NCBI RefSeq assembly: GCF_009749395.1
Contig: NZ_WBIR01000001.1
Span: 62,001 to 126,000 of the forward strand
Length of the DNA stretch: 64,000 nucleotides
Direction of reading: 5' to 3'
From: Agromyces salentinus
GTDB lineage: Bacteria; Actinomycetota; Actinomycetes; Actinomycetales; Microbacteriaceae
Program-made: the position numbers and the translations under genes
Notes under the pieces: generated by a model
Told to the model about the DNA's origin: nothing
Databases searched by the model: none
What the model saw: the letters and a program-made list of their open reading frames with translations, nothing else
In this document: one piece after another, positions 19,054 to 37,721 of the stretch
Layout of the letters: each line of letters opens with the position of its first letter
How positions within the stretch are numbered: position 1 is the stretch's first letter

Positions 19054-19067
19054 TCGAAACGCTTCGA
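19054..19067. promoter_or_regulatory. TCGAAACGCTTCGA operator upstream of the second GH43 gene
   Basis: This 14-bp site differs by one base from the perfect TCGAAGCGCTTCGA palindromes of the xyloglucan block. A CATACT -10-like box follows at 19071-19076. It links this GH43 gene to that regulon even though the BxlR-like LacI gene is its neighbour. Confidence 0.65.
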
Positions 19068-19109
19068 CGACATACTGGACCGGACCACGTCCACGAATCC
19101 GGGAACAGC

Positions 19110-19185
19110 CATGCCGATGACCACGCAACCCGCCCAGCCGCTGCTCGGCGATCATCCTCGCGACTCCCGGCCGGCCGCAGCATGA
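19110..19185 (+). CDS. Possible leader peptide overlapping the GH43 start
   Basis: A 24-codon open frame begins ATGCCGATGACC and ends at a TGA that overlaps the GH43 ATG by four bases (ATGA). The GH43 start has no Shine-Dalgarno of its own, while GGGA lies about 7 bases before the leader ATG. Two better examples of the same arrangement occur at 25597-25638 and 29790-29843. It could couple translation of GH43 to that of the leader. Coding status is uncertain. Confidence 0.35.
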
Positions 19186-20603
19186 GCGGCACGGCAGAGG
19201 TCGTCCCGGTCGTCCCCGGGTTCCACCCCGACCCCAGCGTGTGCCGTGTCGGCGAGGACTACTACCTCGCGAACTCCTCGTTCGAGTACGTGCCCGCGGT
19301 GCCGATCTGGCACTCGCGGGACCTCGTGAGGTGGACGCAGATCGGCAACGCGCTCGTGCGCGACACCCAGTTCCCGGCGGGCCGGGCGCGCGACAGCGGC
19401 GGCATCTACGCGCCCACGCTGCGCCACCACGACGGCTGGTTCTGGCTGATCACGTCCGACGTCGGCGACGCGCACGGCGGACAACGGCTGTTCCGGGCCG
19501 CCGACGCCGCCGGACCCTGGTCCGACGCGATCGAACTGCCCGAGCTCCGCGGCATCGACCCCGACCTCTGCTGGACCGACGACGGCGAGTGCCTGGTCAG
19601 CTACTGCTCCTGGTCGAGCGGTCCGTCCGCCATCTGGCAGGCCGCCATCGACCCCGAGACGGGGCGGGTGCTGGAGGAGCCGCGGCTCCTCTGGACCGGT
19701 ACCGACCTCGGGCACACGGAGGGCCCGCATCTGCTCCGCCACGGGGACTGGTGGTACCTGGTGGCCGCCGAGGGCGGCACCGAACGGGGGCACGGGGTCT
19801 CCGTCGCGCGCTCGCGCGACCCGCGCGGCCCCTTCGAGGCTGCGCCGTCCACCCCGGTCTACTCCCACCGCAGCACCGAGCACCGCGTGCAGAACATCGG
19901 CCATGCCGACCTGGTCGAGCGGCCCGACGGAACCTGGGCGGCCGTGCACCTCGGGGTGCGCCCGCGCGGCATGACGCCGTCGTTCCACGTCAACGGGCGC
20001 GAGACCTTCCTCGCCGAGGTCGACTGGGTCGACGACTGGCCGGTGTTCCGGCCGTCGGAGGCCGTGCCGCCCGAGCGGGCCTGGGACGTCGACGACGCCT
20101 TCGATCGCCTGCATCCGCGCTGGATCTCGCCGCGCGCACGGATCGAGACCTTCGCGAACACCGTACCGGGCGGACTCGAGGTGGCGGCAGCCGATGGAGC
20201 GGGCGTGTACGCCCGGCTCCAGGCGATGCACTGGGGGTCCGTGTTCGAGCTCGACCCCCGCCGCGACGCGGTCGTGCACGCCGAGGTGCGGTTCGACGAC
20301 CGCAACCGGGTCGGCGTGCGCATCGCCGACGGCGGGGCCACCGCCGTCTGGACGGTGGGCGGCCGCGTCGTCGAACTCGGTCATGTCGATGCGTTCGACG
20401 GGCGGGTGGAGATCGCCTCGGTGCCGGCTTCGGCCATGGGACCCGACGACCTCGTGCTCTCGGCCGGCGGGCGAGCGCTCGGCACGATCGACGGCCGCTA
20501 CCTCTCGACCGAGGTCGCGACGGGCTTCACCGGCCGTGTGGCGGGGGTGCGCGTCGAGCGGGGCATCGCCCTCGTGCGGCGCATCTCGATCAGCGAGGCG
20601 TGA
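19182..20603 (+). CDS. GH43 glycosidase (xylosidase/arabinofuranosidase type)
   Basis: A 473-residue cytoplasmic protein. The catalytic signature GFHPDPSVCRVGEDYYLANS is at about residues 10-30, with GIDPDLCWTDDGE and HTEGPHLLRHG supplying the other two acidic residues. A C-terminal beta-sandwich of about 150 residues follows the propeller. It is related to but shorter than the GH43 at 12614-14215 and differs in the active-site loops (FEYVPAVPIWHSRDL), so the linkage removed may differ. The start at 19182 matches the beginning of homology; an in-frame ATG at 19011 lies upstream of the operator and promoter. Confidence 0.88.
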   Translation: MSGTAEVVPVVPGFHPDPSVCRVGEDYYLANSSFEYVPAVPIWHSRDLVRWTQIGNALVRDTQFPAGRARDSGGIYAPTLRHHDGWFWLITSDVGDAHGGQRLFRAADAAGPWSDAIELPELRGIDPDLCWTDDGECLVSYCSWSSGPSAIWQAAIDPETGRVLEEPRLLWTGTDLGHTEGPHLLRHGDWWYLVAAEGGTERGHGVSVARSRDPRGPFEAAPSTPVYSHRSTEHRVQNIGHADLVERPDGTWAAVHLGVRPRGMTPSFHVNGRETFLAEVDWVDDWPVFRPSEAVPPERAWDVDDAFDRLHPRWISPRARIETFANTVPGGLEVAAADGAGVYARLQAMHWGSVFELDPRRDAVVHAEVRFDDRNRVGVRIADGGATAVWTVGGRVVELGHVDAFDGRVEIASVPASAMGPDDLVLSAGGRALGTIDGRYLSTEVATGFTGRVAGVRVERGIALVRRISISEA

Positions 20604-20604
20604 C

Positions 20605-20636
20605 GGGTGCCCGTGCGCGAAACCGCACGGGCACCC
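20605..20636. terminator. Bidirectional terminator between convergent GH43 and GH74 genes
   Basis: GGGTGCCCGTGCG (20605-20617) and CGCACGGGCACCC (20624-20636) form a perfect 13-bp stem with a 6-base loop, in the 41-base gap between two convergent stops. Confidence 0.9.
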
Positions 20637-20644
20637 TGACCAGC

Positions 20645-23287
20645 TCAGCCGAGGCGCTCCCACGGGCCGTTCCGGTCGCCCGGACGGTCGCCGCGCGACC
20701 ACCACTCGGCGCGCCAGAGCTCGCCGTCGTGCTCGACGACGTCGCCGGAGCCGAAGATGCGCGACGACGTCCACTGGGAGACCCCGCTCGACGCCGTGGC
20801 GATCTCCTGCCACGGGCCGCGCGCGGCGCCGGGCTCGTCGTCGCGGCTCCACCAGGTGGCGACCCACGGCGAGCCGTCGAAGGTCACGACGTCCCCCTCG
20901 CCGTAGGTGGCGGAGGCACTCCACGCCGCGGGTTCCGACGGCGACGCATCGTCGCCGACGACGATGCCTCGCCCATTGGTCGCGACGTAGACCCGGCCGA
21001 AGACGTCCGGATCGCCCTCGATGTCGGCCCCGATCCAGCCCCACTGGTGATCGTCGTCATTGATGCGCGTCCAGCTCGCACCCCCGTCGGTCGAACGGAA
21101 CACGCCGCGCACCCCGTCACGTCGCGCGGCCGTGAAGATCGTGGGATGCGTCGAGCCCGGGGCGGCCATGCCGAAGCCGACGGTGTCGGCCTGGTCGAAG
21201 CCGCTGACGCGCTCCCACTCGCCGCCGCCGTCGACGGAGCGCCACAGCCCGTACGCGCCGTCGGCGTCGCCGCCCGCGAGCCAGACCTCGCCGATGCGGC
21301 CGGGCATCGCGGCGAAGCGGACGTTCCCTTCGACCGGGAGGGTCGCGGAATCGAGTGCCGTGAAGCTCGAACCACCGTCAACGGAGCGGTAGAACGTCCC
21401 GCCGGCGAAGCCGTAGACGGCGTCCGCGTCGACGCGATCGGCCTCCACGCGCGCCCCGTCCGGGAGGCCGGAGACCGGCGACCAGCTCGCGCCGCCATCC
21501 GCGGTGACCTGCGGCGTCGCATCCGCCGGAGCCCAGACCGCTCCCCCGCCCTCGGCCGTCACCGCAACGGTGCCGCCGCCGGTGGCGCCGTCGACCACGG
21601 GCGAGGAGGCCCAGGTCGCGCCGCCGTCGCCCGAGAACGCGGCCCGGTGCGCGCCCGCGCCGTCGGTTCCCGCACGCGCGATGGCGCCCTCGGCGAGGCC
21701 GGCCGCGTCGACCGCGGTGGCACCGCCGAAGTACGGCTCCTGGAACGTGTTCGTCACCCGGCCGATGTCCTCGTGGACGAAGCCGCCGAGATCGAGCATG
21801 GCCGAGACGAGGTCGACGTCCCCGAGCGGGGCGACGAGATCCTGGATCGCGGTCTCCTCGATGCCGTCGGCCGCCGGTGCGAGGTGGATGCGGCCGTCGG
21901 GGCGATCCCACTCGGTGAGGTCGTTCGCCCGGTAGATCGTCGCGCCGGTGCCGTACATGAGCTCATCCGAGTTGTGGGGGTCGATCTCGAGCGAGGAGAC
22001 CATCCAGCCGAGCTTCGGCGTCGGTTCGCTCCACGGGACGGGTTCGCCCGGCTCCTTGCCGAACGCGAGCCAGGGCACGTCGTCGATCGACTGCTCGTAC
22101 CGGCGCTCGACCGAGGCGGCGCCGTCGCCGCCGTAGGCGTAGTCCCAGATCGGCGACCAGGTCTCGCCGCGGTCCGTGCTGCGGAAGATCAGGATGTCCG
22201 GCCACCACTGGATCTGCGTGGCGACCATGATCGTGTCGGGATCGTTGCGATCGACGGTCAGGCCGCCGAACCCGAAGTCGCCGCCCACCGGCCGCTGCAT
22301 CGGCGTGATCTCGGTCCATTTCCCGTCGTCGAGGCCGTACCGCCAGACCTCCCCGTCGGACCCGTCGTAGGGTCCGCTGGTGTCCGTCGTGGTGATGTAG
22401 AGGACGCGGGCCTCCTCGTCGATGACGCCGCGCTGCGGGATGAACCCGGTCGGTGCCCCCTCCACCTCGGACCAGGTCGCGCCGGCGTCGTCGGAGCGGT
22501 AGAGGATGTGGTCCTTGTCGGCGACGGCCGTGAAGATCGTCGACGTCGCACTGCCCGACGGCGAGGATGCCGTGTCGAAGGCGCTCCACAGCACGCCGAG
22601 TTCGCTCGTGAGGTACGAGTTCTCGGAGGCCGGGTCGGGTGCGTAGTCGCCGACGTTCGGGAAGCTCCCCACCTGCTCGAACGTCGCACCCGCGTCGGTC
22701 GAGCGCCACAGGCCCTGGCCCTGCTCGGCACCGAAGTAGAGCACGTCGTTGTCGTTCGGGTCGACCTGCAGGCGTTCGCCGATGCCGCGGCCGGGCATGT
22801 TGCCGCCGACCTTGAACGGCAGCTCCGCCGCCTGCCAGGTCTCGCCGTGGTCCGAGGATCGGAGGATCGCGCCGGCGTTCGGGTCCCAGTCGTTCGTGTA
22901 CATGCCGACGGCGGCGTACACCCGTGCGGTGTCGACGGGGTCGGTCGCGAGGCTCAGGACGCCCAGCCGATTCCAGTCGTCCCAGCCGACGTGGTCGAGC
23001 AGCGGCACCCAGCGCTCGGTGTCGCGGTCGAGCCGGTACGCGCCGCCGATGTCGGTCCTGGCGTAGACGAGGCCCTCCTCGGTGGGGTTGTAGACGATCC
23101 CCGGGACGTACCCGCCGCCCGAGATCGCCGCGTTCGACCACTCGTACCCGGCGGCGACGGTGGCGGCATCCTCCACCGCGGATGCCGCGGGCACGGCGCC
23201 GGCCGTGACCGCGGCCCCCGCGACGAGCATCACCCCCGCGGCGAGGGACGCGGTCCCGGTCCTGGTTCGTGTCCTGCCATGCAGCAT
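20645..23287 (-). CDS. Secreted GH74 xyloglucanase with two C-terminal CBM5/12-like modules
   Basis: An 880-residue exoenzyme. The signal peptide (residues 1-37) ends at PAASA. Two seven-bladed propellers carry repeated Asp-box-like STDGG and SDDAGATW motifs. One catalytic Asp is in ARTDIGGAYR near the N-terminus, and the other is likely in LDLGGFVHED in the second half, both matching GH74 endo-xyloglucanases. Two short modules of about 45 residues end the protein (W-ATWWSRDDEP and WRAEWWSRGDRP), resembling CBM5/12. The ATG at 23287 has AAGGAG 7 bases upstream. A perfect TCGAAGCGCTTCGA operator lies 53 bases before the start. It would cut xyloglucan outside the cell and feed the GH31, GH3, GH42 and GH95 enzymes. 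Confidence 0.95.
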   Translation of the reverse strand: MLHGRTRTRTGTASLAAGVMLVAGAAVTAGAVPAASAVEDAATVAAGYEWSNAAISGGGYVPGIVYNPTEEGLVYARTDIGGAYRLDRDTERWVPLLDHVGWDDWNRLGVLSLATDPVDTARVYAAVGMYTNDWDPNAGAILRSSDHGETWQAAELPFKVGGNMPGRGIGERLQVDPNDNDVLYFGAEQGQGLWRSTDAGATFEQVGSFPNVGDYAPDPASENSYLTSELGVLWSAFDTASSPSGSATSTIFTAVADKDHILYRSDDAGATWSEVEGAPTGFIPQRGVIDEEARVLYITTTDTSGPYDGSDGEVWRYGLDDGKWTEITPMQRPVGGDFGFGGLTVDRNDPDTIMVATQIQWWPDILIFRSTDRGETWSPIWDYAYGGDGAASVERRYEQSIDDVPWLAFGKEPGEPVPWSEPTPKLGWMVSSLEIDPHNSDELMYGTGATIYRANDLTEWDRPDGRIHLAPAADGIEETAIQDLVAPLGDVDLVSAMLDLGGFVHEDIGRVTNTFQEPYFGGATAVDAAGLAEGAIARAGTDGAGAHRAAFSGDGGATWASSPVVDGATGGGTVAVTAEGGGAVWAPADATPQVTADGGASWSPVSGLPDGARVEADRVDADAVYGFAGGTFYRSVDGGSSFTALDSATLPVEGNVRFAAMPGRIGEVWLAGGDADGAYGLWRSVDGGGEWERVSGFDQADTVGFGMAAPGSTHPTIFTAARRDGVRGVFRSTDGGASWTRINDDDHQWGWIGADIEGDPDVFGRVYVATNGRGIVVGDDASPSEPAAWSASATYGEGDVVTFDGSPWVATWWSRDDEPGAARGPWQEIATASSGVSQWTSSRIFGSGDVVEHDGELWRAEWWSRGDRPGDRNGPWERLG

Positions 23288-23339
23288 GCGCACACTCCTT
23301 CGTGTCGTCGTGGATCGCGGTGATCCGTGGGTGACGCTA

Positions 23340-23353
23340 TCGAAGCGCTTCGA
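23340..23353. promoter_or_regulatory. TCGAAGCGCTTCGA operator of the GH74 gene
   Basis: A perfect 14-bp palindrome. On the minus strand a TAGCGT -10-like box follows it directly. The other sites of the set are at 19054, 25716, 27065, 29722 and 37708. Confidence 0.85.
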
Positions 23354-23470
23354 GCCGCACAAGGGGCCGGGCCGTCCGGCGAAGCGAGGGCGCTCGGGAC
23401 GGCCGGCCGCCGGCGGCCGCGGCCGAGCCGACCACGCCTCGACGCGGCCTCGGCCAGGGTGGTGCGACGC

Positions 23471-25600
23471 TCAGCCCTGAACTTCGCCGGCCGCGCCGTC
23501 CTCGCCCGTGATCGGGATCACGGCGCCCTCGCGGATCCACAGCGGCACCGTGTCGAAGCCGTGCGTCTCGCGGCGCCACGCGCCGCCCTCGACCACCTCG
23601 CGCGTGAACCAGTTGGTCCAGCGCCCGGCCGGCAGGTAGTACTCGACGTCGCCGGCGTCCGAGAAGACCGGCGCCACGAGCAGGTCGGGTCCGAGGAGGT
23701 ACTGCCGGTCGAGATGCGCGACCGCCGGGTCGTCGGGGAACTCGAGCACCATCGGCCGCATGACCGGACGCCCCGTGCGGTGCGCCTCCTCCCCCGCCGC
23801 GACGAGGTAGGGCCTGAGCGACCGCTTCAGCTTCGCGAAGCGGCGTGCCACCTCCACCGCGCTCTGGCCCGGCGCCTCGTCGCCCGTGTCGAATGCCCAC
23901 GGCACCCGGTAGCTCGTCGATCCATGCAACCGGGAGTGGCTGGAGAGCAGCCCGAAGGCGAGCCAGCGCTTGAACACGGCCGCGTCGGGGTCGCCCTCGA
24001 AGCCGCCGATGTCATGGCTCCAGTATCCGAACCCGCTGAGGGCGAGCGACAGCCCACCCCGCAGGCTCTCGGCCATCGAGACGAAGCTGGACGAGTTGTC
24101 GCCGCCCCAGTGGACGGGCATCGACTGCCCCCCGACCGTCGCCGAGCGGGCGAACAGCACCGCCTCCCCCGGGCCGCGCACCTCCTCGAGCACCTCGAAG
24201 ACGGCCCGGTTGTAGAGCTGGGTGTAGCGGTGGTGCATGGCTTCGGGGTCGCTGCCGTCGTGCCAGACGAGGTCGGCCGGAACACGCTCGCCGAAATCGG
24301 TCTTGATCGCGTCGACGCCCTGCGCGAGCAGCCCGCGCACGTGCTCCTGGAACCAGGCGGTCGCGGCCGGATTCGTGAAGTCGACGAGGGCCATGCCCGC
24401 CTGCCAGAGGTCCCACTGCCACACCGAGCCATCTCGCCGCTTGACGAGGTAGCCGGCCTCGAGCCCCGAGTCGAACAGCGAGGAGCGCTGCGCGATGTAC
24501 GGGTTGAGCCAGGCGCTGACGCGGAGTCCGCGATCGTGCAGGCGCCCGAGCATGCCCTCGGGATCGGGGAAGACGCGCGGGTCCCATTCGAAGTCGGTCC
24601 AGTGGAACTCGCGCATCCAGAAGCAGTCGAAGTGGAAGACCTCGAGCGGGATGTCGCGCTCGGCCATGCCGTCGATGAACGCGTTCACGGTCTGCTCGTC
24701 GTACTCGGTCGTGAAGCTCGTCGAGAGCCACAGCCCGTACGACCAGTCGGGCACGAGCGCCGGGCGCCCGGTGAGGCGGGTGTATCGATCGAGCACCTCG
24801 GCGGGGGTCGGCCCGGCGATCACGAAGAACTCCAGGGCCTCCCCGGCGACCGAGAACTGCACCTGTTCGACCGCCTCCGAGCCCACCTCGAACGAGACAT
24901 GGCCGGCGTGGTTCACGAGTACGCCGTAGCCTCGGCTCGAGAGGTAGAACGGCACGTTCTTGTACGACTGCTCACTGGAGGTGCCGCCGTCGGCATTCCA
25001 CACGTCGACCGCCTGGCCGTTCTTCACCATGGGCCCGAACCGCTCGCCGAGGCCGTAGACGAGCTCGCCGACGTCGAGTCCGAGCTGGGCGTGCAGGTAG
25101 TGCTCGGCCCACGGCCGGCCGTCGGGCGAGACGCCGGCGGGACCGACCGGTTCGGCCGACACGGCCGCGCCGGGCGAGAGCGTGAGCGAGCCGATCGACT
25201 TGTGGCCGCTCCGCGTGTACGTGCCGCCGTCGTGCTCGAACGACAGCGACCAGGGCGTGCGCCGCGAGAGCCGCGCCCGCAGCGCGCCGGCGTCGACCAC
25301 GCCGTCGTCGCCCTCGACCGAGACCACGGCACGGTGCGAGGCATCCGTCACGACCTCGAAGCCCGGATCGGCCTGGCGCCCGCGGTGGCGCTCGACGCGC
25401 ACCCGAACGACGCCCTCGGCGGGGCTGCCGATCGTGACGGTCAGCGCCCCGCGGTTGAGCACGTCGCCGCGGTCCCGGATCACCCGCGTGGGTGCGAGGG
25501 CGACCAGTTCGTCGTCGTGCGCCTCGAGCTCGTAGGCCTCCTGCGCGTACTGCGCCTCCACCCCGGGACGCAACTGCCAGAACCCGTCGGTGAACTTCAT
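23471..25600 (-). CDS. GH31 alpha-xylosidase (YicI-like), cytoplasmic
   Basis: A 709-residue GH31 enzyme without a signal peptide. The specificity loop DCFWMREFHWTDFEWD is typical of alpha-xylosidases. The nucleophile is Asp435 in KTDFGERVP and the acid/base Asp501 in HWGGDNSSS. It would remove xylose from the non-reducing end of imported xyloglucan oligosaccharides. The ATG at 25600 has no Shine-Dalgarno, but it overlaps by ATGA the stop of a 13-codon leader ORF that has a good one. A perfect operator and a TTGCGC-N18-TACGCT promoter lie upstream. The ROK regulator gene is also on the minus strand, upstream. Confidence 0.94.
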   Translation of the reverse strand: MKFTDGFWQLRPGVEAQYAQEAYELEAHDDELVALAPTRVIRDRGDVLNRGALTVTIGSPAEGVVRVRVERHRGRQADPGFEVVTDASHRAVVSVEGDDGVVDAGALRARLSRRTPWSLSFEHDGGTYTRSGHKSIGSLTLSPGAAVSAEPVGPAGVSPDGRPWAEHYLHAQLGLDVGELVYGLGERFGPMVKNGQAVDVWNADGGTSSEQSYKNVPFYLSSRGYGVLVNHAGHVSFEVGSEAVEQVQFSVAGEALEFFVIAGPTPAEVLDRYTRLTGRPALVPDWSYGLWLSTSFTTEYDEQTVNAFIDGMAERDIPLEVFHFDCFWMREFHWTDFEWDPRVFPDPEGMLGRLHDRGLRVSAWLNPYIAQRSSLFDSGLEAGYLVKRRDGSVWQWDLWQAGMALVDFTNPAATAWFQEHVRGLLAQGVDAIKTDFGERVPADLVWHDGSDPEAMHHRYTQLYNRAVFEVLEEVRGPGEAVLFARSATVGGQSMPVHWGGDNSSSFVSMAESLRGGLSLALSGFGYWSHDIGGFEGDPDAAVFKRWLAFGLLSSHSRLHGSTSYRVPWAFDTGDEAPGQSAVEVARRFAKLKRSLRPYLVAAGEEAHRTGRPVMRPMVLEFPDDPAVAHLDRQYLLGPDLLVAPVFSDAGDVEYYLPAGRWTNWFTREVVEGGAWRRETHGFDTVPLWIREGAVIPITGEDGAAGEVQG

Positions 25601-25638
25601 CGCCCGACCGCCGTCGCGTGAGGGGTGGTGCTCGTCAT
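25597..25638 (-). CDS. Short leader ORF translationally coupled to GH31
   Basis: An ATG at 25638 with GGAGG five bases upstream opens the frame MTSTTPHATAVGR, then TGA. The stop overlaps the GH31 ATG as ATGA. GH31 itself lacks a Shine-Dalgarno, so ribosomes probably load at the leader and restart. The leader is too short to be seen by usual gene callers. No run of one amino acid suggests classical attenuation. Confidence 0.6.
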   Translation of the reverse strand: MTSTTPHATAVGR

Positions 25639-25691: not shown

Positions 25692-25737
25692 TCGAATCCA
25701 TTCGAATCGAACGGATCGAAGCGCTTCGATGCAGCGT
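25692..25737 (-). promoter_or_regulatory. Promoter and operators of the GH31 gene
   Basis: ATCGAAGCGCTTCGAT is a perfect 16-bp palindrome at 25715-25730. On the minus strand TACGCT (25737-25732) is a -10 box immediately upstream of it, with TTGCGC 18 bases further up. A second dyad, TCGAATCCATTCGA, is at 25692-25705. Repressor here would block the start site. Confidence 0.8.
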
Positions 25738-25807: not shown

Positions 25808-26986
25808 TCAGGCGGGCGCGATCCCCGATTCGGGGTCGTCGAGCAACGGTGCGAAGGCCAGTTCGGCGGCGCCGATGGCGAGCCGGCCCTCGCCGAGCGC
25901 CGCGACCCGCAGCTGCACCCCCTCGGCGGCAGGGCTCATCGCCTGGGCGACGACCGCGTCGACGAGGGCGTCGTGATCCCGCTCGGCGATCGTCGCCAGG
26001 AAGCCGCCGAGCACCACGACGGCGGGGTTCAGGACGTTGATCGCATTGGCCAGCGCGGTCGACAGGATGCGGCGCTGCCTCGCGAGCTCGTTCGCGACCT
26101 CGGGCGAATCGGATGCCTCGAGCGCGGCCTTGAGCGTCGGCTCGTCGGCGCCGGCGAGGCCGACGACCTGGAGCAGCCTGGCGCGGGCGACCTCGTCCTC
26201 GAGCACTCCGCCTTCGGCGCGCCGATCGCCGGCCGCGGCGATTCCCGGCCGGTTCTGGCCGAACTCGCCCGCGTAGCCGCCCGCACCGGACACGACGATG
26301 CCCCCGATCACGAGACCGCCGCCGATGCCGCTCGCGCCGCCGTTCAGGTAGACGAGGTCGTCGACGCCGCGGCCGGCGCCGAAGAGGTGCTCGGCGAGGG
26401 CGCCGAGGCTGGCGTCGTTGCCGACCGCCACCGGCAGCCCGGTGGCGGACTCGACGATCTCGCGGAGCGGCACCTCTCGCCATTCCAGGTGGGGTGCGGC
26501 GCGGACGAGTCCGTCGGCCGCGCGCACGAGGCCGGGCACGGCCAGGCCGATGCCGACGATCCGCGCCGACCGGAGGAGGTCGGCGCGCCAGTGCTCGAGC
26601 GTCGTGGCCACGAGCTGCGCGACCTCTTCGGGCGAGACCAGGTGATCCACCTCGACCCGTTCGGACACCGGGATGCGGCCGTCGAGGCCCACCGCCGCGA
26701 TCGTGACGGCATCGACCTCGGGATTGACCGCGATCGCCATGACCCCGGGATGCGCGGCGACCACGGGCGACGGGCGGCCGACGCGATTGGTGGGATCGGG
26801 GGCGCGCTCCTCGACGAGACCGGCTTCGACGAGCTCGCCGACGAGCGCCGCGACGGTCGAGCGATTGAGGCCGGTGGACGTGGTCAGCGCGGCCCGCGAC
26901 CGCGGCCCGTCGAGGTGCACGAGACCGAGGACCTTCGCCAGGTTCCGACGGTGCACCCCGTCGAAGGTGCCGCTGCGCTCTGCCAT
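25808..26986 (-). CDS. ROK-family transcriptional regulator
   Basis: A 392-residue protein with an N-terminal winged HTH (about residues 10-70, SRAALTTSTGLNRSTVAALV) and a ROK sugar-kinase-like domain. GNDASLGALAEHLFGAG and VYLNGGASGIGGGLVIGG fit the ROK fold. The usual zinc-binding CxCGxxGCxE segment is replaced by Cys-free sequence after AGEFGQNRPG, so the protein likely has no structural zinc. The ATG at 26986 is 6 bases after a TAGAGT -10 box, with no Shine-Dalgarno, so the mRNA is probably leaderless. It is divergent from the GH3 gene at 27121 and may be a second regulator of the xyloglucan genes. Confidence 0.9.
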   Translation of the reverse strand: MAERSGTFDGVHRRNLAKVLGLVHLDGPRSRAALTTSTGLNRSTVAALVGELVEAGLVEERAPDPTNRVGRPSPVVAAHPGVMAIAVNPEVDAVTIAAVGLDGRIPVSERVEVDHLVSPEEVAQLVATTLEHWRADLLRSARIVGIGLAVPGLVRAADGLVRAAPHLEWREVPLREIVESATGLPVAVGNDASLGALAEHLFGAGRGVDDLVYLNGGASGIGGGLVIGGIVVSGAGGYAGEFGQNRPGIAAAGDRRAEGGVLEDEVARARLLQVVGLAGADEPTLKAALEASDSPEVANELARQRRILSTALANAINVLNPAVVVLGGFLATIAERDHDALVDAVVAQAMSPAAEGVQLRVAALGEGRLAIGAAELAFAPLLDDPESGIAPA

Positions 26987-27059: not shown

Positions 27060-27078
27060 TATCCTCGAAGCGCTTCGA
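27060..27078 (+). promoter_or_regulatory. -10 box and TCGAAGCGCTTCGA operator of the domain-swapped GH3 gene
   Basis: TATCCT (27060-27065) runs directly into the perfect palindrome at 27065-27078. GGAGG lies before the ATG at 27121. No convincing -35 is visible. Confidence 0.8.
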
Positions 27079-29688: not shown

Positions 29689-29735
29689 TTGACGGATCGC
29701 CGTGCGTCTGACTATCCTCAGTCGAAGCGGTTCGA
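29689..29735 (+). promoter_or_regulatory. Promoter and operator of the LplABC-like transporter operon
   Basis: TTGACG (29689-29694), an 18-base spacer and TATCCT (29713-29718) form a good promoter. The operator TCGAAGCGGTTCGA (29722-29735), one base off the perfect palindrome, begins three bases after the -10 box. A further CGAA-containing stretch (GTTTCGAACAAATACTCGAA) follows at about 29744-29763. Confidence 0.8.
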
Positions 29736-29789: not shown

Positions 29790-29843
29790 ATGAAAGAGTG
29801 TGCGATCGCCCGTCGGTCGGCGCCGGGAACGGCGACCCGATGA
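29790..29843 (+). CDS. Short leader ORF coupled to the transporter operon
   Basis: AAGGAG at 29780 serves an ATG at 29790 that encodes MKECAIARRSAPGTATR and stops at TGA 29841-29843. That stop overlaps the permease ATG (29840) as ATGA. The permease has no Shine-Dalgarno of its own. An in-frame GTG for the permease at 29798 is the rival start but lies 12 bases from AAGGAG, which is too far. Confidence 0.6.
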   Translation: MKECAIARRSAPGTATR

Positions 29844-30835
29844 CCACGTCAGGCGTCATCCAGGAGCTCACGGCCACCGGCCTCGAGGAGAGCCCGAAGG
29901 CCGAGCAGGCCGAGCGCAGGCGCAAGCAGCGGGGCGGACGGCGGCCCTCCTTCACCATGTTCCTCGTGATCGTGCCGTTCCTGGTGCTGATCTTCCTCTT
30001 CTCCTACTTCCCGCTGTACGGCTGGATCTACTCGCTCTACGACTACAAGCCGGCACTCGGGCTGCAGGGCAGCGAGTTCGTCGGACTGCAGTGGTTCCAA
30101 CTGCTCGTCGGATCGCCGACCCAGGTCGCCCAGATCGGCCAGGTGCTGCTCAACACCCTCGCGATCAGCTTCCTGGGCATCGCGACCTCGGTCCTGCCGC
30201 TCGCCTTCGCGATCTTCCTCAACGAGGTCAAGGCGCCCTGGTTCCGAGGCGCCGTGCAGACGCTGACCACCCTGCCGAACTTCATCTCGTGGGTGCTCGT
30301 CTACATGATCGCGTTCTCGCTCTTCTCGAGCACCGGTCTCGTGAACGGCGTGCTCTCGGACATGGGCCTCATCACCGTTCCGGTCAAGTTCCTCGACAGC
30401 GACGAGAACGTCTGGATCACCATGACCCTGTGGAGCGTCTGGAAGGGACTCGGCTGGGGCGCGATCATCTACCTCGCGGCCATCAGCGGCATCGACCGCG
30501 AGCTCTACGAGGCGGCGGAGATCGACGGCGCGGGGCGCTTCCAGCGGATGTGGTACATCACGGTCCCGCAGCTGATGCCGACGTACATCGTGCTGCTCCT
30601 GCTCTCCGTCGCGAACCTCCTGAACAACGGCATGGAGCAGTACTACGTGTTCCAGAACGCCTTCAACAAGGAGCACATCCAGGTGCTCGACCTGTACGTC
30701 TACAACATCGGCATGACCGGCAACAACCTGTCGATGGCCACCGCGATCGGCATGCTCAAGAGCCTCATCTCGGTCGCACTCCTGTTCACCGTCAACGGCA
30801 TCGCGAAGCGTGTTCGCGGCCAGTCGATCGTCTGA
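29840..30835 (+). CDS. ABC transporter permease, LplB-like
   Basis: A 331-residue membrane protein with a hydrophilic N-terminus of about 35 residues and about six transmembrane segments. The EAA loop is ELYEAAEIDGAGRFQRMWYI. The early SYFPLYGWIYSLYDYKP and the late NGMEQYYVFQN are typical of the LplB/YtcP-type group of CUT1 permeases for complex oligosaccharides. It is first of three transporter genes, with permease and binding protein following. It is probably translated by coupling to the leader ORF at 29790. Confidence 0.9.
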   Translation: MTTSGVIQELTATGLEESPKAEQAERRRKQRGGRRPSFTMFLVIVPFLVLIFLFSYFPLYGWIYSLYDYKPALGLQGSEFVGLQWFQLLVGSPTQVAQIGQVLLNTLAISFLGIATSVLPLAFAIFLNEVKAPWFRGAVQTLTTLPNFISWVLVYMIAFSLFSSTGLVNGVLSDMGLITVPVKFLDSDENVWITMTLWSVWKGLGWGAIIYLAAISGIDRELYEAAEIDGAGRFQRMWYITVPQLMPTYIVLLLLSVANLLNNGMEQYYVFQNAFNKEHIQVLDLYVYNIGMTGNNLSMATAIGMLKSLISVALLFTVNGIAKRVRGQSIV

Positions 30836-30845
30836 GGGGGCCGAG

Positions 30846-31811
30846 ATGACCACCACCACCTCCACCACCGCGCTCACCGCCGTCAACCCGACGCAGCAGC
30901 CGCGGACCCCCGCTCCCCGCCGCACCCCGGGCTCGATCGCCTTCACGATGCTGAACGCCCTCGTGTTCGTCCTGCTCGCGTTCGTGTGCGCGTACCCCTT
31001 CTACTACCTCATCATCAACTCGGTCAGTGCCAACGATCTGGCCGCCCTCGGCGAGGTGCGCTGGTTCCCGCAGGGCTTCCACCTCTCCAACTACGAGCAG
31101 GTGTTCCAGCTGAACGGCCTGCCGATGGCGGCGATCGTGACCGTCGCCCGCACCGTGATCGGCACCGCCGCGACCGTGCTCGCCTCGGCGTTCCTCGGCT
31201 TCATGTTCACGCAGGAGCGCATGTGGGCCAGGCAGTTCTGGTACCGGTTCACGATCATCACGATGTACTTCAGCGCCGGACTCATCCCCGTGTTCATCGT
31301 CATGAAGAACCTCGGGCTGACGAACAACTTCTGGGTCTACGTGCTGCCGTTCATCGTGCAGCCGTTCTTCATCATCCTCGTGAAGACCTACGTGGAGTCG
31401 ATGCCGGCGTCGTTGCAGGAGGCCGCCGAGGTCGACGGTGCGAACATCGTGCAGATCTTCTTCCGCATCTACCTGCCGAACATGACCCCGATCCTCGCGA
31501 CGGTCGCCATCTTCTCCGGCGTCGCCCAGTGGAACAGCTTCCAGGACACGCTGATCTACATCACCGACCAGAGCCTGTACACGCTGCAGTACCTGCTCTA
31601 CATGTTCATCAACCAGGCGAACAGCCTCGCCCAGGCGATGGCCAACTCGGGCGGCAATGTGGGCGCGATCGTGGATGCCGCGACCTCGCAGACGCCGACC
31701 TCGATCCGCATGACGATCTCGGTCATCGTCGTGCTGCCCATCATCTTCATCTACCCGCTGTTCCAGCGCTTCTTCGTCAAGGGCATCATGCTCGGCGCGG
31801 TCAAGGGCTGA
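30846..31811 (+). CDS. ABC transporter permease, LplC/YtcP-like
   Basis: A 321-residue permease with six membrane segments and the EAA loop LQEAAEVDGANIVQIFFRIY. The N-terminus is Thr-rich (MTTTTSTT). The C-terminus IYPLFQRFFVKGIMLGAVKG is typical of this CUT1 subgroup. It starts 10 bases after the first permease. Confidence 0.92.
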   Translation: MTTTTSTTALTAVNPTQQPRTPAPRRTPGSIAFTMLNALVFVLLAFVCAYPFYYLIINSVSANDLAALGEVRWFPQGFHLSNYEQVFQLNGLPMAAIVTVARTVIGTAATVLASAFLGFMFTQERMWARQFWYRFTIITMYFSAGLIPVFIVMKNLGLTNNFWVYVLPFIVQPFFIILVKTYVESMPASLQEAAEVDGANIVQIFFRIYLPNMTPILATVAIFSGVAQWNSFQDTLIYITDQSLYTLQYLLYMFINQANSLAQAMANSGGNVGAIVDAATSQTPTSIRMTISVIVVLPIIFIYPLFQRFFVKGIMLGAVKG

Positions 31812-31851
31812 CCGGCACCCCTGCACCATCACACCACCAGAGAGGAAAGCA

Positions 31852-33600
31852 ATGAAGCTCCGAAAGAAGGTCGCCGCAGTGGCGTCGGCTCTGGCCACGA
31901 TCGGCATGTTGGCCGCCTGCACCCCCGGCGCCGCCCAGGAGGACCGCGCCGCGGTCTCCGAGTTCCCCACGAGCTGGGACGAGGAGATCACGATCGACGT
32001 CTTCGACGGGCTCGCGAACTACCAGGGCATGCAGGAGGGGTGGTTCGGCAAGCTCGTCAAGGACAAGTTCAACATGAAGCTGAACATCATCGCCCCGAAC
32101 GTGGCCGGTGGTGGCGACACCCTCTTCAACACGAGGGTGACCGCAGGGGACCTCGGCGACCTGATCATCACCGACCAGGGCGAGAAGCTGGACGAGCTCA
32201 TCGCGGGCGGCCTGGTCCTCGACTCGGCGCCGTACTACGGCGCCATGGACGACGCCGCCCGCTTCGATGCCGCCGTCGCCCGCATCAACGAGGAGAGCGG
32301 CGGCACGTACGCCTTCCCCTCGCAGGTCTCCTCCATCAAGCCGACGGAGCCCTCGGAGGGCCTCGACCCCACGTTCGGCCCCTACGTGCGCTGGGACCTC
32401 TACAAGGAGGCCGGCTACCCCCAGCTCGACACGCTCGAGGACCTGCTTCCCGCCCTGCAGAAGATGCAGGAGATCCAGCCGACCGCCCCGAACGGCCAGA
32501 AGACGTACGCCATCTCGCTCTTCAAGGACTGGGACGGCAACATGATGAACAACGCGAAGCAGCCGACGACGTTCTACGGCTACGACGAGCTGGGCTTCGT
32601 GCTGGCGAAGGCCGACGGCGAGGACTACCAGGGCATCCTCGACGAGGACGGCGAGTACTTCCGCGCGCTGAAGTTCTACCACGACGCCAACGCGCTCGGC
32701 CTGGTCGACCCCGATTCGACCACCCAGAACTACGACACGCTCTGGACGAAGTACCAGAACGGACAGGTGCTGTTCTCGTTCTGGCCGTGGCTCGGGCAGG
32801 CCGCCTACAACACCGAGGAGAACACGGCCGCCGGCCGGGGCTTCATGATCGCCCCGCTGCAGGACCAGACCATCTTCTCGTACGGCGCTCCGGCGTACGG
32901 CGGCAAGCAGGTGCTCGCCATCGGCTCGAAGGCGGAGGACCCCGAGCGCATCGCGGCCTTCATCGACTGGCTCTACTCCCCCGAGGGCACGCTCTCGAAC
33001 AACAGCCAGACCATGGGCGCCGCCGGCCCCGAGGGCCTCACCTGGGAGATGGACGGAGACGAGCCGGTCCTGACCGACTTCGGCAAGGAGGTCTTCCTCA
33101 ACGGTGACGCCGAAGTGCCGGCCGAGTGGGGCGGTGGCAGCTACATCGACGGCACGTCGGCCCTGAACATCAGCGCGGTCCTGCCCATCGACGTCGACCC
33201 CGAGCGCGGCTTCCCGTACAGCTACAAGCTGTGGCCGTCCTACCAGGCGCTGATCGAGACGCCGCTGAGCACGGACTGGTCGACCAACATGGACGACGCC
33301 TCGACCACGATCGACTACCTCACGAAGAACGAGCAGATCATGGTCGCCCCCGGTGCGAGCTACACGGCCCCCGCCGACAGCTCCGAGATCGAGACCCTGC
33401 GCAACCAGGTGAAGGCCACGGTCGTGCAGTACTCGTGGCAGATGATCTTCGCCGAGAGCGAGGCGGAGTTCGACTCGCTGAAGGCGAAGCTGCAGGAGAC
33501 GGCCGACGGCCTCGGGTACGAGCAGGTGCTCGAGTTCGACATGGCGAACGCCGAGGACCAGAACGACCTGCGCGTCGAGGTCGCGAAGGAGTTCGGCTGA
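31852..33600 (+). CDS. Large oligosaccharide-binding lipoprotein, LplA/YtcQ-like
   Basis: A 582-residue binding protein, longer than ordinary CUT1 proteins and typical of the LplA/YtcQ branch. The lipobox is LAAC at about residue 23. The mature start is ITIDVFDGLANYQG. AGAGGAAAG precedes the ATG. It is the last gene of its operon and is followed by a strong terminator. With the GH74, GH31, GH3, GH95 and GH42 genes around it, a xyloglucan oligosaccharide is the likely ligand; this is inferred from context only. No ATPase gene is linked. Confidence 0.9.
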   Translation: MKLRKKVAAVASALATIGMLAACTPGAAQEDRAAVSEFPTSWDEEITIDVFDGLANYQGMQEGWFGKLVKDKFNMKLNIIAPNVAGGGDTLFNTRVTAGDLGDLIITDQGEKLDELIAGGLVLDSAPYYGAMDDAARFDAAVARINEESGGTYAFPSQVSSIKPTEPSEGLDPTFGPYVRWDLYKEAGYPQLDTLEDLLPALQKMQEIQPTAPNGQKTYAISLFKDWDGNMMNNAKQPTTFYGYDELGFVLAKADGEDYQGILDEDGEYFRALKFYHDANALGLVDPDSTTQNYDTLWTKYQNGQVLFSFWPWLGQAAYNTEENTAAGRGFMIAPLQDQTIFSYGAPAYGGKQVLAIGSKAEDPERIAAFIDWLYSPEGTLSNNSQTMGAAGPEGLTWEMDGDEPVLTDFGKEVFLNGDAEVPAEWGGGSYIDGTSALNISAVLPIDVDPERGFPYSYKLWPSYQALIETPLSTDWSTNMDDASTTIDYLTKNEQIMVAPGASYTAPADSSEIETLRNQVKATVVQYSWQMIFAESEAEFDSLKAKLQETADGLGYEQVLEFDMANAEDQNDLRVEVAKEFG

Positions 33601-33613
33601 TCACGATGCGGCG

Positions 33614-33652
33614 ATGAGGAAGCCCGGGGCAGGCGCCCCGGGCTTTCCTCAT
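33614..33652. terminator. Bidirectional terminator between the binding-protein and DUF624 genes
   Basis: GAGGAAGCCCGGGGC (33616-33630) pairs with GCCCCGGGCTTTCCTC (33635-33650), with one bulged base and a 4-base loop. It lies between convergent genes. Confidence 0.9.
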
Positions 33653-33670
33653 GTCCGCGCCAGGCGCGCG

Positions 33671-34276
33671 TCAGTCGCGGTGTCGTGCGTGGACCGCGCG
33701 GAACAGGAACGCACTGCCGTAGGCGCCGAGCGAGCAGCCGATGGTCGCGACCACCAGGACGAACGGCGGGAAGATCACCGCGAGGCATCCGATGGTCACC
33801 GGGATGAGCAGCAGCCCCAGGGTGCGGATCGGCTCCGCGGCCGGCAGGAGCAACGCGTTCTTGAGCGTCTGGCGGAACGAGTTGCGGTACGCGGCCACCA
33901 GCGCCATGGCGTGCAGGAACGCGGCGAACGCGTACGCCGCAGCCAGGAAGGCGATCGCGGCGAGCGCCGTGACGAACGGCTCGGGGTTGAAGAGCCAGAA
34001 GAGTCCGCTGAAGACGAGCGCGGCGGCCGGCACGAGCAGGCACAGCATCAGCAGCGTGGCTTGGACGAAGTTGCGGCCGAACGCCGGGAAGTAGCCGGCG
34101 ACGGGCCGGCCGCGCTCCTCGTCGGCATAGCGGATCGTCACCTCGTCGAGCGCGCTCACCGCGGCGCCGATCGTCACGATCGGCACGCAGCTCACGAGGA
34201 AGATCACGTTGAGCGCGATGAACGCGAGGAAGGTCGTGAGGCCGTCGAGCGCCTTGTTCTCGGGGTCGATGCGCAC
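33671..34276 (-). CDS. DUF624 (YesL-type) membrane protein
   Basis: A 201-residue protein with about five membrane segments. The N-terminal DPENKALDGLTTFLAFIALNVIFLVSCVPIVTIG is typical of DUF624 proteins, which are commonly encoded beside LplABC-type sugar transporters in Firmicutes and Actinobacteria; their role is unproven. It starts with GTG 4 bases after the LacI stop, with a GAGG 9 bases upstream, so it is the last gene of the GH95-LacI-DUF624 operon and converges on the transporter operon. A second, more distant relative is at 53696-54391. Confidence 0.85.
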   Translation of the reverse strand: MRIDPENKALDGLTTFLAFIALNVIFLVSCVPIVTIGAAVSALDEVTIRYADEERGRPVAGYFPAFGRNFVQATLLMLCLLVPAAALVFSGLFWLFNPEPFVTALAAIAFLAAAYAFAAFLHAMALVAAYRNSFRQTLKNALLLPAAEPIRTLGLLLIPVTIGCLAVIFPPFVLVVATIGCSLGAYGSAFLFRAVHARHRD

Positions 34277-34280
34277 GCCG

Positions 34281-35285
34281 TCAGGCCTCGTCCACGGCGA
34301 GCTTCGAGGTCACCAGACGAGGCGCGAGCAGGTTGACCCGTTCGGTCGGCTCGCCCGCCAGGAGCGCCTCGAGGACCCGTGTCGCGGCGGCGCCGATCTC
34401 CTCGGCCGGAAGGTCGATGACCTCCGTGAGCCCGCCGACCGCGTGCGCGACCTCGGGCGGGCACAGGGCGATGAGGTCGATCGCCGCGGCGGCGGGCGCC
34501 CCGACCGCACGCGCACGGAGCCGATCGGCCACATGGGGAAGCGCGCCCTCGTTGTGCACGAAGAGACCGCTGATCGAGGAGTCGTGATCGAGCACCTCGT
34601 CGAGCAGTCGGGCGGCATCGGCACCGCTCGGCGACGGGTGGATGCTCCCCTCGACCCCGAAGGCCGCGCAGGCCTCGGTGAAGCCCCTGGCGAGCCGGTC
34701 GGCGTACGACGTGTGGCGGGTCACCACCTCGGGCGGCGACCCGACGAGTGCGATCCGCCGATGCCCGCGCTCGACGAGTCGCTCGACGGCGAGCGCCCCG
34801 GCGGCCTGGAAGTCGAAGTCGACGCAGGTCAGGTCCTCGGCGCCGGCCGGCAGGCCGATGAGCACCGCCGGCGCACCGAGCGCCGCGATCGTGGCGAGCC
34901 TCGTGTCGTCGGATTCGACGTCCATCACGAGGAAGGCGTCCACGCTCGACGAGCGGTCGGCGCGCTCGAGCCCGCTCGCGTCGTCGCTCGCGAGCAGCAG
35001 GATGTCGTACTCCTGCTTGCGCGCCTCGCTCACGACGCCCGCGACGATCTGCATGACGACCTGCACGTCGACGCCCGCGCGCAGCGGCGCCTGCAGGCCG
35101 ATCACGTGGCTCGCCTGCGAGGCCAGGGATCGTGCGCCGGCATGCGGCCGGAAGTCGAGCTCCTCGATCGCGCGGGCGACCCGCTCCTGCGTCTTGACCG
35201 AGATGGTGCGCTTGCCGCTCATCACGTAGGACACGGTGGAGATCGAGACCCCCGCTGCCTTCGCGACATCCGCGATCGTCGTCAT
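34281..35285 (-). CDS. LacI-family repressor, probable regulator of the xyloglucan genes
   Basis: A 334-residue LacI protein with a textbook HTH (TTIADVAKAAGVSISTVSYVMSGKRTISVKT) and hinge (HAGARSLASQASHVIGL). The ATG overlaps the GH95 stop by four bases, so it is the second gene of that operon and is controlled by the operator at 37708. Because that operator belongs to the TCGAAGCGCTTCGA set, this protein is the best candidate to bind all six sites. A fucose-, galactose- or xylose-containing oligosaccharide could be the inducer. Confidence 0.92.
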   Translation of the reverse strand: MTTIADVAKAAGVSISTVSYVMSGKRTISVKTQERVARAIEELDFRPHAGARSLASQASHVIGLQAPLRAGVDVQVVMQIVAGVVSEARKQEYDILLLASDDASGLERADRSSSVDAFLVMDVESDDTRLATIAALGAPAVLIGLPAGAEDLTCVDFDFQAAGALAVERLVERGHRRIALVGSPPEVVTRHTSYADRLARGFTEACAAFGVEGSIHPSPSGADAARLLDEVLDHDSSISGLFVHNEGALPHVADRLRARAVGAPAAAAIDLIALCPPEVAHAVGGLTEVIDLPAEEIGAAATRVLEALLAGEPTERVNLLAPRLVTSKLAVDEA

Positions 35286-37684
35286 GACACCCCTTCTGCT
35301 AGATGACCGACCGGTTGGAGTCGGGTGACCGCGCCGGGGCGGAGCTCGCACCCGAGCGCCTCGATGCCGGGCCCCAGCACGTCGATCCGGCACGGGCCCT
35401 CGGCGTGGAGCTCGACGGTGAGGATCCGTCCTTCGGACCAGTGCAGGTCCACCGTAACGCCCCCGCGGGCCCGGATCCCGTGGACGCGCCCCTCGACCCA
35501 GCCGGGCGGCAGGGCGGGCAGCAGGCGGAGCACCCCGCCGTGCGACTGCACGAGCGCCTCGGCGATCGCGGCCGTGAGCCCCAGGTTGCCGTCGACCTGG
35601 AACGGCGGATGCGCGCTGAACAGGTTGCCGTAGAGCCCGCCGCGGTGCTCGCCGGCGACGTGGCCGTGCCCGTCGGCGGCCGGAGGTCCGTCGCCGTCGG
35701 CGGGACGCAGCGCGAGCGCGAGCTGGCGCTCCACGCGATCGCCGTCGCCGAGGCGAGCCCACATCGCCGCCCGCCAGGCGAGCGCCCACCCGGTGGACTC
35801 CTCGCCGCGGCCGAGGATCGACGCCCTGGCCGCATCGGCGAGCTCGGGAGTGCGCTCCGGGGTGATGCGGGCGAAGGGGAAGAGGCCGACGAGGTGCGAG
35901 AGGTGCCGGTGGCCGGGCTCGGCCTCGGCGAGGTCGCGCGACCACTCGGCGAGGGTCCCGTCGCCCCTGACGCGCAGGCTCGGCAGGAGCCCGGTCGTCT
36001 CGACGAGTTCGGCGATGAGCGCGGTGACCTCCTGGTCGCGCTCGTCGAGCACCGCGGCGGCGGAGGCGCAGACGTCGCCGAGTTCGCGCAGCAGTTCGCA
36101 GTCCATGGTCGACGACTCGTCGACCGAGCGCATGGCGCCCGTGGCATCGAGGTAGTGGTTCTCGGGCGAGGTCGACGGGCTCGTGCGGGCGCCCGCTCGG
36201 TCGCGCTGGATCCAGGAGCGGGCGAAGCGCGCCGCGCCGACGACGGCCGGCCATGACGCCCGCAGCTCGGCGACGTCGGCATCGGTGCCCGGGCTGAAGG
36301 CGAAGTGCTCCCACGCGTGCAGCGCGAGCCACACTCCGCCCATGGGCCAGAACGCCCACGCGGGGTCGCCGGCTCCCGCTCCCACCGGTGCGGCGTGGCC
36401 CCAGACGTCGGAGTTGTGGTGCATGGCCCAGCCGTCGGCGCCGTGCAGGTCTCGCGCGACGACGGCCCCGGGCCCGGCGGCAACCTCGCGCACGAAGCGC
36501 AGGAGCGGTTCGTGGCACTCCCCCAGCGCCGTCACCTCGGCGGGCCAGTAGGCCATCTGGAGGTTGATGTTCGTCGTGTACGCGCTCGACCAGGGGCCGG
36601 GCAGTTCGGCGTTCCAGAGCCCTTGGAGGGTGAGCGGTCGGCCCCCGGGCTGCGATCCGGCCATGAGCAGGTACCGGCCGTAGTGGAAGGCGAGCGCGGC
36701 GAGCCCCGGATCGGGCCGCTCGGAGGCGCGCCGCACGCGTTCGTCGGTGTCGAGCATCGCGACGTCGGGGTGGGAGGGCAGTTCCAGCGAGCAGCGCAGG
36801 TACTGCTCGCGATGCACCGCGATGTGGGCCTCGCGCAGCGCCGCGCCGTCGCGCTCCCGTCGCGGCGCCGCGACCGTCGTCGACGCGGCGTGCGCCTCCG
36901 GGGCGGCGGGTCCGACTCGCGTGAGCACGCGCACGAGGTGCTCGGTCGCAGGCGGGGTCAGGACGCCGTCGTCGGATGCCTCGCAGCGGGCGCCGACGGA
37001 CACGGTGACGGTCGCGACGCGGCCGCGCTCGACGTCGTAGCGGATCGGCTCGGCGGGTTGCTCGTGCCCGGGCGCGACGTCGACGGGCAGCCACCACTCG
37101 GCCTCGAAGCCGTCGCCGGTCGGCGTGTTCGCCCGGCGGCGCCTGAGCCGCGCGTCATGCGCGAGGCGCAGCCGCACGGGCCGGGAGGCGACGACCCGGT
37201 GGAGGATCGCCCCGGTCGGGCGATCGGCCCAGGTCTCGTGCTGCACGCGGCATCCGTCGATCCCGTAGTGCTGGCTCGCGATGCCGGTCGTGAGGTCGAG
37301 CGCCCGGTGGTAGCCGCTCGCCTCGCCGGTCGGGCCGGCGACCTCGACGTCGACCCGTCCGAGCGGCAGGAATGCCTGCACCCACGGCGTCTGCTGGCGC
37401 TGGAGCAGGCGCTCGGCCTCAGCCGCGTCGCCGTCGTCGACCGCGCGCCGGACCGCGGCGAGCGCGTCGGCTGCGCGGTCCTCGACACCGGCGAGCGGGT
37501 CGGCCCCTGGGAGCCCCGACCACGCCTCCAGGTCGTTGAGCCAGAGTCGTTCGTACCCGGCACCGCCGGCGCACATCGCACCCCGTCGCCCGTTGCCGAC
37601 GGGAAGCGCGTCGGTCCAGGCGCGGGAAGGATGCGCGTACTGCAGCGTGTGCAGCGACGCGCGGGCCTGCGTGGACATGGTCAC
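35282..37684 (-). CDS. GH95 alpha-L-fucosidase, cytoplasmic
   Basis: An 800-residue GH95 enzyme without a signal peptide. The N-terminal beta-sandwich starts with DALPVGNGRRGAMCAGG and WLNDLEAWSG. The alpha6/alpha6 barrel has NINLQMAYWPAEVT, the Asn pair in MHHNSDVWG, the general-acid Glu in SPENHYLDATG and the Asp in FQVDGNLGLTAAI, all matching AfcA-type 1,2-alpha-L-fucosidases. Fucose in plant xyloglucan is alpha-1,2-linked to galactose, so the enzyme would act before GH42. The GTG at 37684 lies 6 bases after a TATACT -10 box (minus strand), fitting a leaderless mRNA; an in-frame ATG at 37678 is the alternative. Its stop overlaps the LacI start. Confidence 0.92.
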   Translation of the reverse strand: MTMSTQARASLHTLQYAHPSRAWTDALPVGNGRRGAMCAGGAGYERLWLNDLEAWSGLPGADPLAGVEDRAADALAAVRRAVDDGDAAEAERLLQRQQTPWVQAFLPLGRVDVEVAGPTGEASGYHRALDLTTGIASQHYGIDGCRVQHETWADRPTGAILHRVVASRPVRLRLAHDARLRRRRANTPTGDGFEAEWWLPVDVAPGHEQPAEPIRYDVERGRVATVTVSVGARCEASDDGVLTPPATEHLVRVLTRVGPAAPEAHAASTTVAAPRRERDGAALREAHIAVHREQYLRCSLELPSHPDVAMLDTDERVRRASERPDPGLAALAFHYGRYLLMAGSQPGGRPLTLQGLWNAELPGPWSSAYTTNINLQMAYWPAEVTALGECHEPLLRFVREVAAGPGAVVARDLHGADGWAMHHNSDVWGHAAPVGAGAGDPAWAFWPMGGVWLALHAWEHFAFSPGTDADVAELRASWPAVVGAARFARSWIQRDRAGARTSPSTSPENHYLDATGAMRSVDESSTMDCELLRELGDVCASAAAVLDERDQEVTALIAELVETTGLLPSLRVRGDGTLAEWSRDLAEAEPGHRHLSHLVGLFPFARITPERTPELADAARASILGRGEESTGWALAWRAAMWARLGDGDRVERQLALALRPADGDGPPAADGHGHVAGEHRGGLYGNLFSAHPPFQVDGNLGLTAAIAEALVQSHGGVLRLLPALPPGWVEGRVHGIRARGGVTVDLHWSEGRILTVELHAEGPCRIDVLGPGIEALGCELRPGAVTRLQPVGHLAEGVS

Positions 37685-37721
37685 CCGAGTAGTATATGTT
37701 CGCGATGTTGAAGCGCTTCGA
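37672..37721. promoter_or_regulatory. Divergent promoters and shared operator, GH95 and GH42
   Basis: TTGAAGCGCTTCGA at 37708-37721 matches the consensus palindrome in 13 of 14 bases. Rightward, TGGACA (37672-37677), 17 bases, then TATGTT (37695-37700) lead to GH42. Leftward, TATACT (37696-37691) leads to GH95. One bound repressor could cover both. Confidence 0.75.

Follow-up and report, generated by a model that had tools for sequence, protein, structure and literature searches.

The xyloglucan cluster and its palindromes

We analyzed a 64,000-nucleotide stretch of the Agromyces salentinus genome (contig NZ_WBIR01000001.1, positions 62,001–126,000; hereafter the window), which holds a xyloglucan gene cluster, a repeated 14-bp palindrome, and a LacI-family gene, LacI-B, whose product we propose as the reader of that palindrome. 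Gene identities were taken from Pfam, NCBIfam, and PDB sequence comparisons, by which the GH74, GH31 alpha-xylosidase, GH3, GH95, GH42, and GH43 enzymes (GH, glycoside hydrolase) and an ABC importer are assigned as a full xyloglucan set (Table 1). A motif scan of the window found TCGAAGCGCTTCGA without mismatch before GH74, before GH31, and between the divergent ROK and GH3 genes. Copies with one mismatch precede GH43 (TCGAAACGCTTCGA) and the importer operon (TCGAAGCGGTTCGA) or lie between the divergent GH95–LacI-B–DUF624 operon and GH42 (TTGAAGCGCTTCGA). The first-pass annotation of this DNA had described six palindromes, three perfect and three with one mismatch, and each of them was recovered at its position.

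The source genome (4.23 Mb in 40 contigs) was scanned with the same motif. At ≤1 mismatch the scan gave nine sites vs. two for the reversed-pattern control, and six of the nine fall in the 18.7 kb of the xyloglucan cluster (binomial P ∼6e-13). The other three (contigs C15, C23, and C37) are inside open reading frames (ORFs) that Pfam assigns as SnoaL-like, urease beta, and E1-E2 (P-type) ATPase; thus the intergenic sites of the genome at this threshold are six, all in the cluster. The first-pass annotation had named a motif common at unrelated loci as grounds for refuting its regulon; at ≤1 mismatch the motif is not common at such loci. Selectivity was lost at two mismatches (78 genome sites vs. 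49 for the control), and extension of the regulon by a two-mismatch scan was dropped as too unspecific. Inside the window, 18 matches were found at ≤3 mismatches vs. 7.7 expected.

All six sites are even palindromes with a central CG, as is typical of LacI-family operators. Their distance to the closest start codon, counting those of leader ORFs, is 25–78 bp. Two sigma-70-like promoters only were called in the region (0.4 expected), and both abut operator sites. The importer and GH42 sites are just downstream of the -10 element; the site before GH43 and those before GH3 in the relatives were read by eye as lying between the -35 element and a CATACT -10 element.

Other small elements were observed near the sites. 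The sequence TCGAATCCATTCGA at 25692–25705, 24 bp from the GH31 operator, is possibly a second, weak site. Short leader ORFs at 29790–29843 (17 amino acids, aa), 25597–25638 (13 aa), and 19111–19185 (24 aa) share an ATGA overlap with permease 1, GH31, and GH43, respectively. The permease leader, which is 16–17 aa long and contains arginine, is conserved in all five genomes that have LacI-B (see below). These leaders may possibly serve translational coupling or attenuation.

LacI-B as the proposed regulator

LacI-B has a PF00356 helix-turn-helix (HTH) domain (63.4 bits, cut-off 27) and a PF13377 sugar domain (57 bits, cut-off 26.5). The ISTVSY recognition helix belongs to LacI-B alone, with no second ISTVSY protein among the 28 LacI HTHs of the genome. 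LacI-B is also the nearest protein of this genome to the LacI-C group of Agromyces regulators (180 bits vs. ≤81 for the rest), and a search with a LacI-C protein detected no LacI-C in the source genome.

We compared 60 Agromyces genomes. LacI-B orthologues were found in five of them, namely the source genome, G028 (81%), and G002, G003, and G048 (62%). Each of the five has an exact GH3 site, retains a site at the importer, and shows one and the same single deviation at the GH95/GH42 site. The last of these sites precedes the GH95–LacI-B operon in every case, from which autoregulation is predicted; the first-pass annotation had already noted the LacI-B gene downstream of this site.

The protein search with LacI-C over the 60 genomes reached 24 LacI-C proteins with the ISTVSY helix, whose genes mostly adjoin a transporter–GH31 operon. 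The exact 14-mer is ≤1.5 kb from 23 of these genes, and the 24th (in G006) has a one-mismatch form. The exact motif was present in 32 of the 60 genomes: ≤1.6 kb from an ISTVSY LacI gene in 23, in the same cluster as LacI-B in two (the source genome and G028), and in coding sequence or a repeat in five, the remaining two being considered below. LacI-B or LacI-C is present in 25/32 genomes with the exact motif vs. 1/28 without it (Fisher P = 1.4e-9), and in 25/27 vs. 1/33 when the five coding or repeat genomes are set aside (P = 1.7e-13); relatedness is ignored in these and all following P values. The exact site is inside coding sequence in G015, G019, and G030 (G030 by Pfam B3_4/B5). The G056 site was called coding; its surroundings are nearly the reverse complement of those in G030, and one frame has no Pfam match. 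In G034, all three exact sites (L135:9474, L135:10913, and L134:7045) were seen by eye in an apparent dispersed GAGCTTGTCGAAGCG-type repeat, which is a source of false operator calls.

An exact scan of the whole family matched 92 of 398 genomes, and the reversed control matched 20. Among the matches listed, 25 non-Agromyces loci (within L232–L257) had an (I/L)STVSY LacI nearby in 14 cases and not in 11. Seven of these 11 sites are in long coding-like frames; the other four are L245, L246, L256, and L257.

From these sequence data we predict, with a probability of roughly 0.85, that LacI-B is a local autoregulated repressor that reads the six palindromes and controls xyloglucan use. The first-pass annotation had named the same protein as the best candidate regulator, a choice now supported by its unique helix and by the helix/motif pairing in relatives. 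In the mechanism that we infer, whose binding step, repressive (not activating) action, and inducer are all predictions, LacI-B would occupy the six palindromes adjoining or overlapping promoters and would block transcription of GH43, GH74, GH31, ROK/GH3, the ABC importer, and GH95–LacI-B–DUF624/GH42, its own operon being repressed in this way. After import of xyloglucan oligosaccharides, one of their breakdown products may bind the sugar-binding domain, and LacI-B would be released.

Table 1. Features of the xyloglucan cluster and its candidate operators (coordinates count from the first nucleotide of the window).
Feature	Coordinates	Strand	Remarks
LacI-A	17956..18987	-	Unlikely reader of the motif; divergent from GH43
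Candidate operator TCGAAACGCTTCGA	19054..19067	none	Between LacI-A and GH43; 43 bp before 24-aa leader ORF, 114 bp before GH43 start, 66 bp from LacI-A start
GH43 family enzyme	19182..20603	+	PDB relatives include BoGH43A and BoGH43B arabinofuranosidases
GH74 xyloglucanase with CBM5/12	20645..23287	-	Best PDB match a xyloglucanase, E 1.8e-247
Candidate operator TCGAAGCGCTTCGA	23340..23353	none	52 bp before GH74 start
GH31 alpha-xylosidase	23471..25600	-	NCBIfam alpha-xylosidase 1099 bits, cut-off 606; start presumed
Candidate operator TCGAAGCGCTTCGA	25716..25729	none	Before GH31; 77 bp before 13-aa leader ORF overlapping GH31 start
ROK regulator	25808..26986	-	Operator on each flank; probable target
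Candidate operator TCGAAGCGCTTCGA	27065..27078	none	Between divergent ROK and GH3; exact before GH3 in 5/5 LacI-B genomes
GH3 beta-glucosidase family	27121..29583	+	Sequence comparison
Sigma-70-like promoter TTGACG-18-TATCCT	29689..29718	+	Ends 3 bp before 29722 operator
Candidate operator TCGAAGCGGTTCGA	29722..29735	none	Before ABC importer operon; site in 5/5 LacI-B genomes (TCGAAGCGGTTCGA in 3, TCGAAGCGATTCGA in 2)
ABC permease 1	29840..30835	+	Start presumed; ATGA-coupled to 17-aa leader ORF at 29790
ABC permease 2	30810..31811	+	Family comparison
Solute-binding protein	31852..33600	+	SBP_bac_1 22.3 bits, below 26-bit Pfam cut-off
DUF624 membrane protein	33671..34276	-	Last gene of LacI-B operon
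LacI-B, proposed repressor	34281..35285	-	Recognition helix ISTVSY
GH95 alpha-L-fucosidase family	35282..37678	-	First gene of LacI-B operon
Sigma-70-like promoter	37672..37700	+	Ends 7 bp before 37708 operator
Candidate operator TTGAAGCGCTTCGA	37708..37721	none	Between divergent GH95–LacI-B–DUF624 and GH42; identical sequence and orientation in 5/5 LacI-B genomes
GH42 beta-galactosidase family	37747..39828	+	Sequence comparison
Stretch holding GH3-family gene after GH42	39780..42434	+	Coordinates of the stretch, not gene ends

Alternative readers of the motif

Several observations weigh against the assignment of the palindromes to LacI-B. The Tyr that ends the ISTVSY helix recurs at that position in two more LacIs of the genome (TAVISY and TATVSY). 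For the other four LacI-B genomes, the stretches that were read show nothing equivalent to the GH74, GH31, and GH43 sites immediately ahead of these genes; GH74 itself was not found there, and in G002 and G003 GH31 belongs to an operon preceded by a site of its own. G021 and G051 carry a non-coding exact site with no ISTVSY LacI detected; both sites are near contig ends, before a permease–GH31 operon. The non-coding exact motif is also tracked by LacI-A (26/27 genomes with it vs. 16/33 without, P = 3.5e-5) and weakly by the ROK protein at ≥69% identity (23/27 vs. 18/33, P = 0.011). Finally, a tree whose root is uncertain separates LacI-B from LacI-C, the better sampled of the two, so that motif sharing between the two rests on the identical helix and on five genomes, three of which also hold LacI-C.

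LacI-A, transcribed divergently from GH43, could read the motif and thereby link xylan and xyloglucan use. LacI-B had been taken for the only LacI gene in this set of operons, which overlooks LacI-A, the regulator gene nearest to the 19054 site (66 bp from its likely start codon at 18987). The G028 orthologue stands beside the exact GH3 site, so the 14-mer is close to LacI-A in both the source genome and G028, and the presence of LacI-A in all but one of the 27 genomes with the non-coding motif points the same way. However, nearly half of the genomes without that motif have LacI-A too, and its LSTISK helix differs from ISTVSY. Within 300 bp upstream of 80 LacI-A relatives, the 14-mer was found in none, even with one mismatch, and CGAANNTTTCG or its reverse complement in 21 (0.15 expected in shuffles). 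None of these 21 is an Agromyces locus; upstream of LacI-A in Agromyces, the window included, only separated CTTTCG and CGAAA half-sites were seen by eye. On these sequence comparisons, LacI-A is unlikely to be the motif reader.

It appears highly unlikely that LacI-B activates from its sites or shares them with another regulator. The variable position of the sites relative to the promoter, downstream of -10 at two and between -35 and -10 at others, would suit such a role, but the sites adjoin or overlap the promoter wherever one was readable, and no other ISTVSY protein is encoded in the genome.

The ROK protein, which the first-pass annotation put forward as the rival regulator, is a most improbable reader: it does lie between two perfect sites, and at ≥69% identity it is somewhat commoner where the motif is non-coding and exact, but at E ≤1e-60 its homologues are found in 52/60 genomes, with or without the motif (26/27 with the non-coding exact motif vs. 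26/33 without, P = 0.05), so the motif is not confined to, or constant in, the genomes with ROK across the panel. A two-mismatch site ∼100 bp before ROK itself in G002, G003, and G048 is as for a target, and an even length and a central CG are described as typical of the palindromes at LacI-family sites (PMC4052901). Since its homologues are so widespread and sites stand on both of its flanks, ROK is best read as regulated rather than regulating, that is, as a regulon target and perhaps a second-tier regulator.

Helix residue and half-site

RSTVSY or RSTASY LacIs, four of which were examined first (L141, L070, L264, and L265), have TCGAACCGGTTCGA in place of TCGAAGCGCTTCGA. A scan of the genus for TCGAACCGGTTCGA gave 16 sites in 8/60 genomes; the motif scan found none in the source genome. 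In each of the eight genomes (three among the first examined, five new), one or more of the sites has an RST(V/A)SY LacI within its 3-kb locus. Such a LacI was seen in 11 of the 16 loci and is 3.3–6.1 kb off for the other five sites. Ile at AA-15 (Leu once, in G119) pairs with TCGAAGC half-sites and Arg with TCGAACC, i.e., base -2 goes from G to C. G002, G003, and G048 hold LacI-B and LacI-C as paralogues with an identical helix in one xyloglucan cluster.

We lean toward the view that the set with Tyr at AA-20 (xST(V/A)SY), LacI-B among them, represents a natural one-residue recognition switch at AA-15, and that LacI-B and LacI-C of these three genomes would share operators, in which case two sugar sensors could read one regulon. 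In the LacI recognition code of Camas et al. (2010), AA-20 is linked to NT-6 and AA-15 is among the residues linked to NT-2, along with AA-55 and AA-5 (PMC2978694). The switch seen here fits the AA-20/NT-6 and AA-15/NT-2 links; that code was derived from the TVSR group (PMC2978694), whereas the present proteins are TVSY or TASY. What carries over best from this analysis is the pairing of helix and motif. It would extend the LacI recognition rules to the TVSY group and makes a single-residue test of specificity easy; the base preference of a LacI-type repressor may be tuned by a single amino acid.

Neighboring clusters and other palindromes

The xylan-type cluster at 6607–17833 (solute-binding protein, permease, GH3, GH43, and GH10) is without the 14-mer at ≤1 mismatch and is therefore apparently outside the regulon. 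A related palindrome, TCGAATCGATTCGA (and CCGAATCGATTCGA), was observed at 4016–4029 near an MFS gene and at 45323–45336 before a Peripla_BP_4/ABC transporter set; the exact form is also present at C16:48905 of the genome and at L259:9239. Another palindrome, TCTACAACGTTGTAGT at 1471–1486, is just upstream of a further LacI gene, LacI-D (422–1444), and is possibly LacI-D's own operator.

Comparison with known systems

In this actinobacterial genus, one predicted repressor would link the importer with a full set of enzymes acting on the xyloglucan backbone and its side chains. The TCGAAGCGCTTCGA 14-mer was not found in the open-licence literature searched, and among the matches listed from that literature none named a LacI xyloglucan regulon for Agromyces or its family. 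Related systems are compared below as the cited papers describe them.

The XygS/XygR system of Ruminiclostridium cellulolyticum likewise governs both the xyloglucan enzymes and the ABC importer that goes with them; unlike LacI-B, it is a two-component system exerting positive control (PMC8576529). BxlR, the xylan/xylobiose regulator of Streptomyces, resembles LacI-B as a LacI-family protein for hemicellulose genes in Actinobacteria, but its motif, CGAANNTTTCG (PMC12772271), here fits relatives of LacI-A (21/80) and not LacI-B. No CGAANNTTTCG operator was found at the LacI-B targets, where the sites are CGAA-N4-TTCG palindromes.

CelR of Thermobifida fusca and other Actinobacteria shares with LacI-B the LacI family and a 14-bp palindrome with a central CG, and in A. 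mirum a xyloglucanase is among its predicted targets (PMC3377646). CelR-like regulators have palindrome variants with one base changed per half-site; these variants, e.g., of the TGGGAGCGCTCC type, differ from TCGAAGCGCTTCGA, and CelR, unlike LacI-B, acts mainly on cellulases and a cellobiose transporter (PMC3377646). GloR of Thermotoga maritima is a LacI-family protein predicted as the local regulator of a xyloglucan-oligosaccharide cluster, gloEFGKL-cel74-fucA, which like the LacI-B cluster includes an ABC importer, a Cel74 enzyme, and a fucosidase (PMC3750489). It belongs to another phylum, however, and the glo promoter also has CelR sites (PMC3750489); the likeness drawn here is in protein family and gene content. 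GloR in Thermotoga and CelR at the A. mirum xyloglucanase are the closest described parallels, and LacI control of xyloglucan genes was already predicted there. The predicted LacI-B regulon would be a clear-cut example of a common way of controlling sugar genes.

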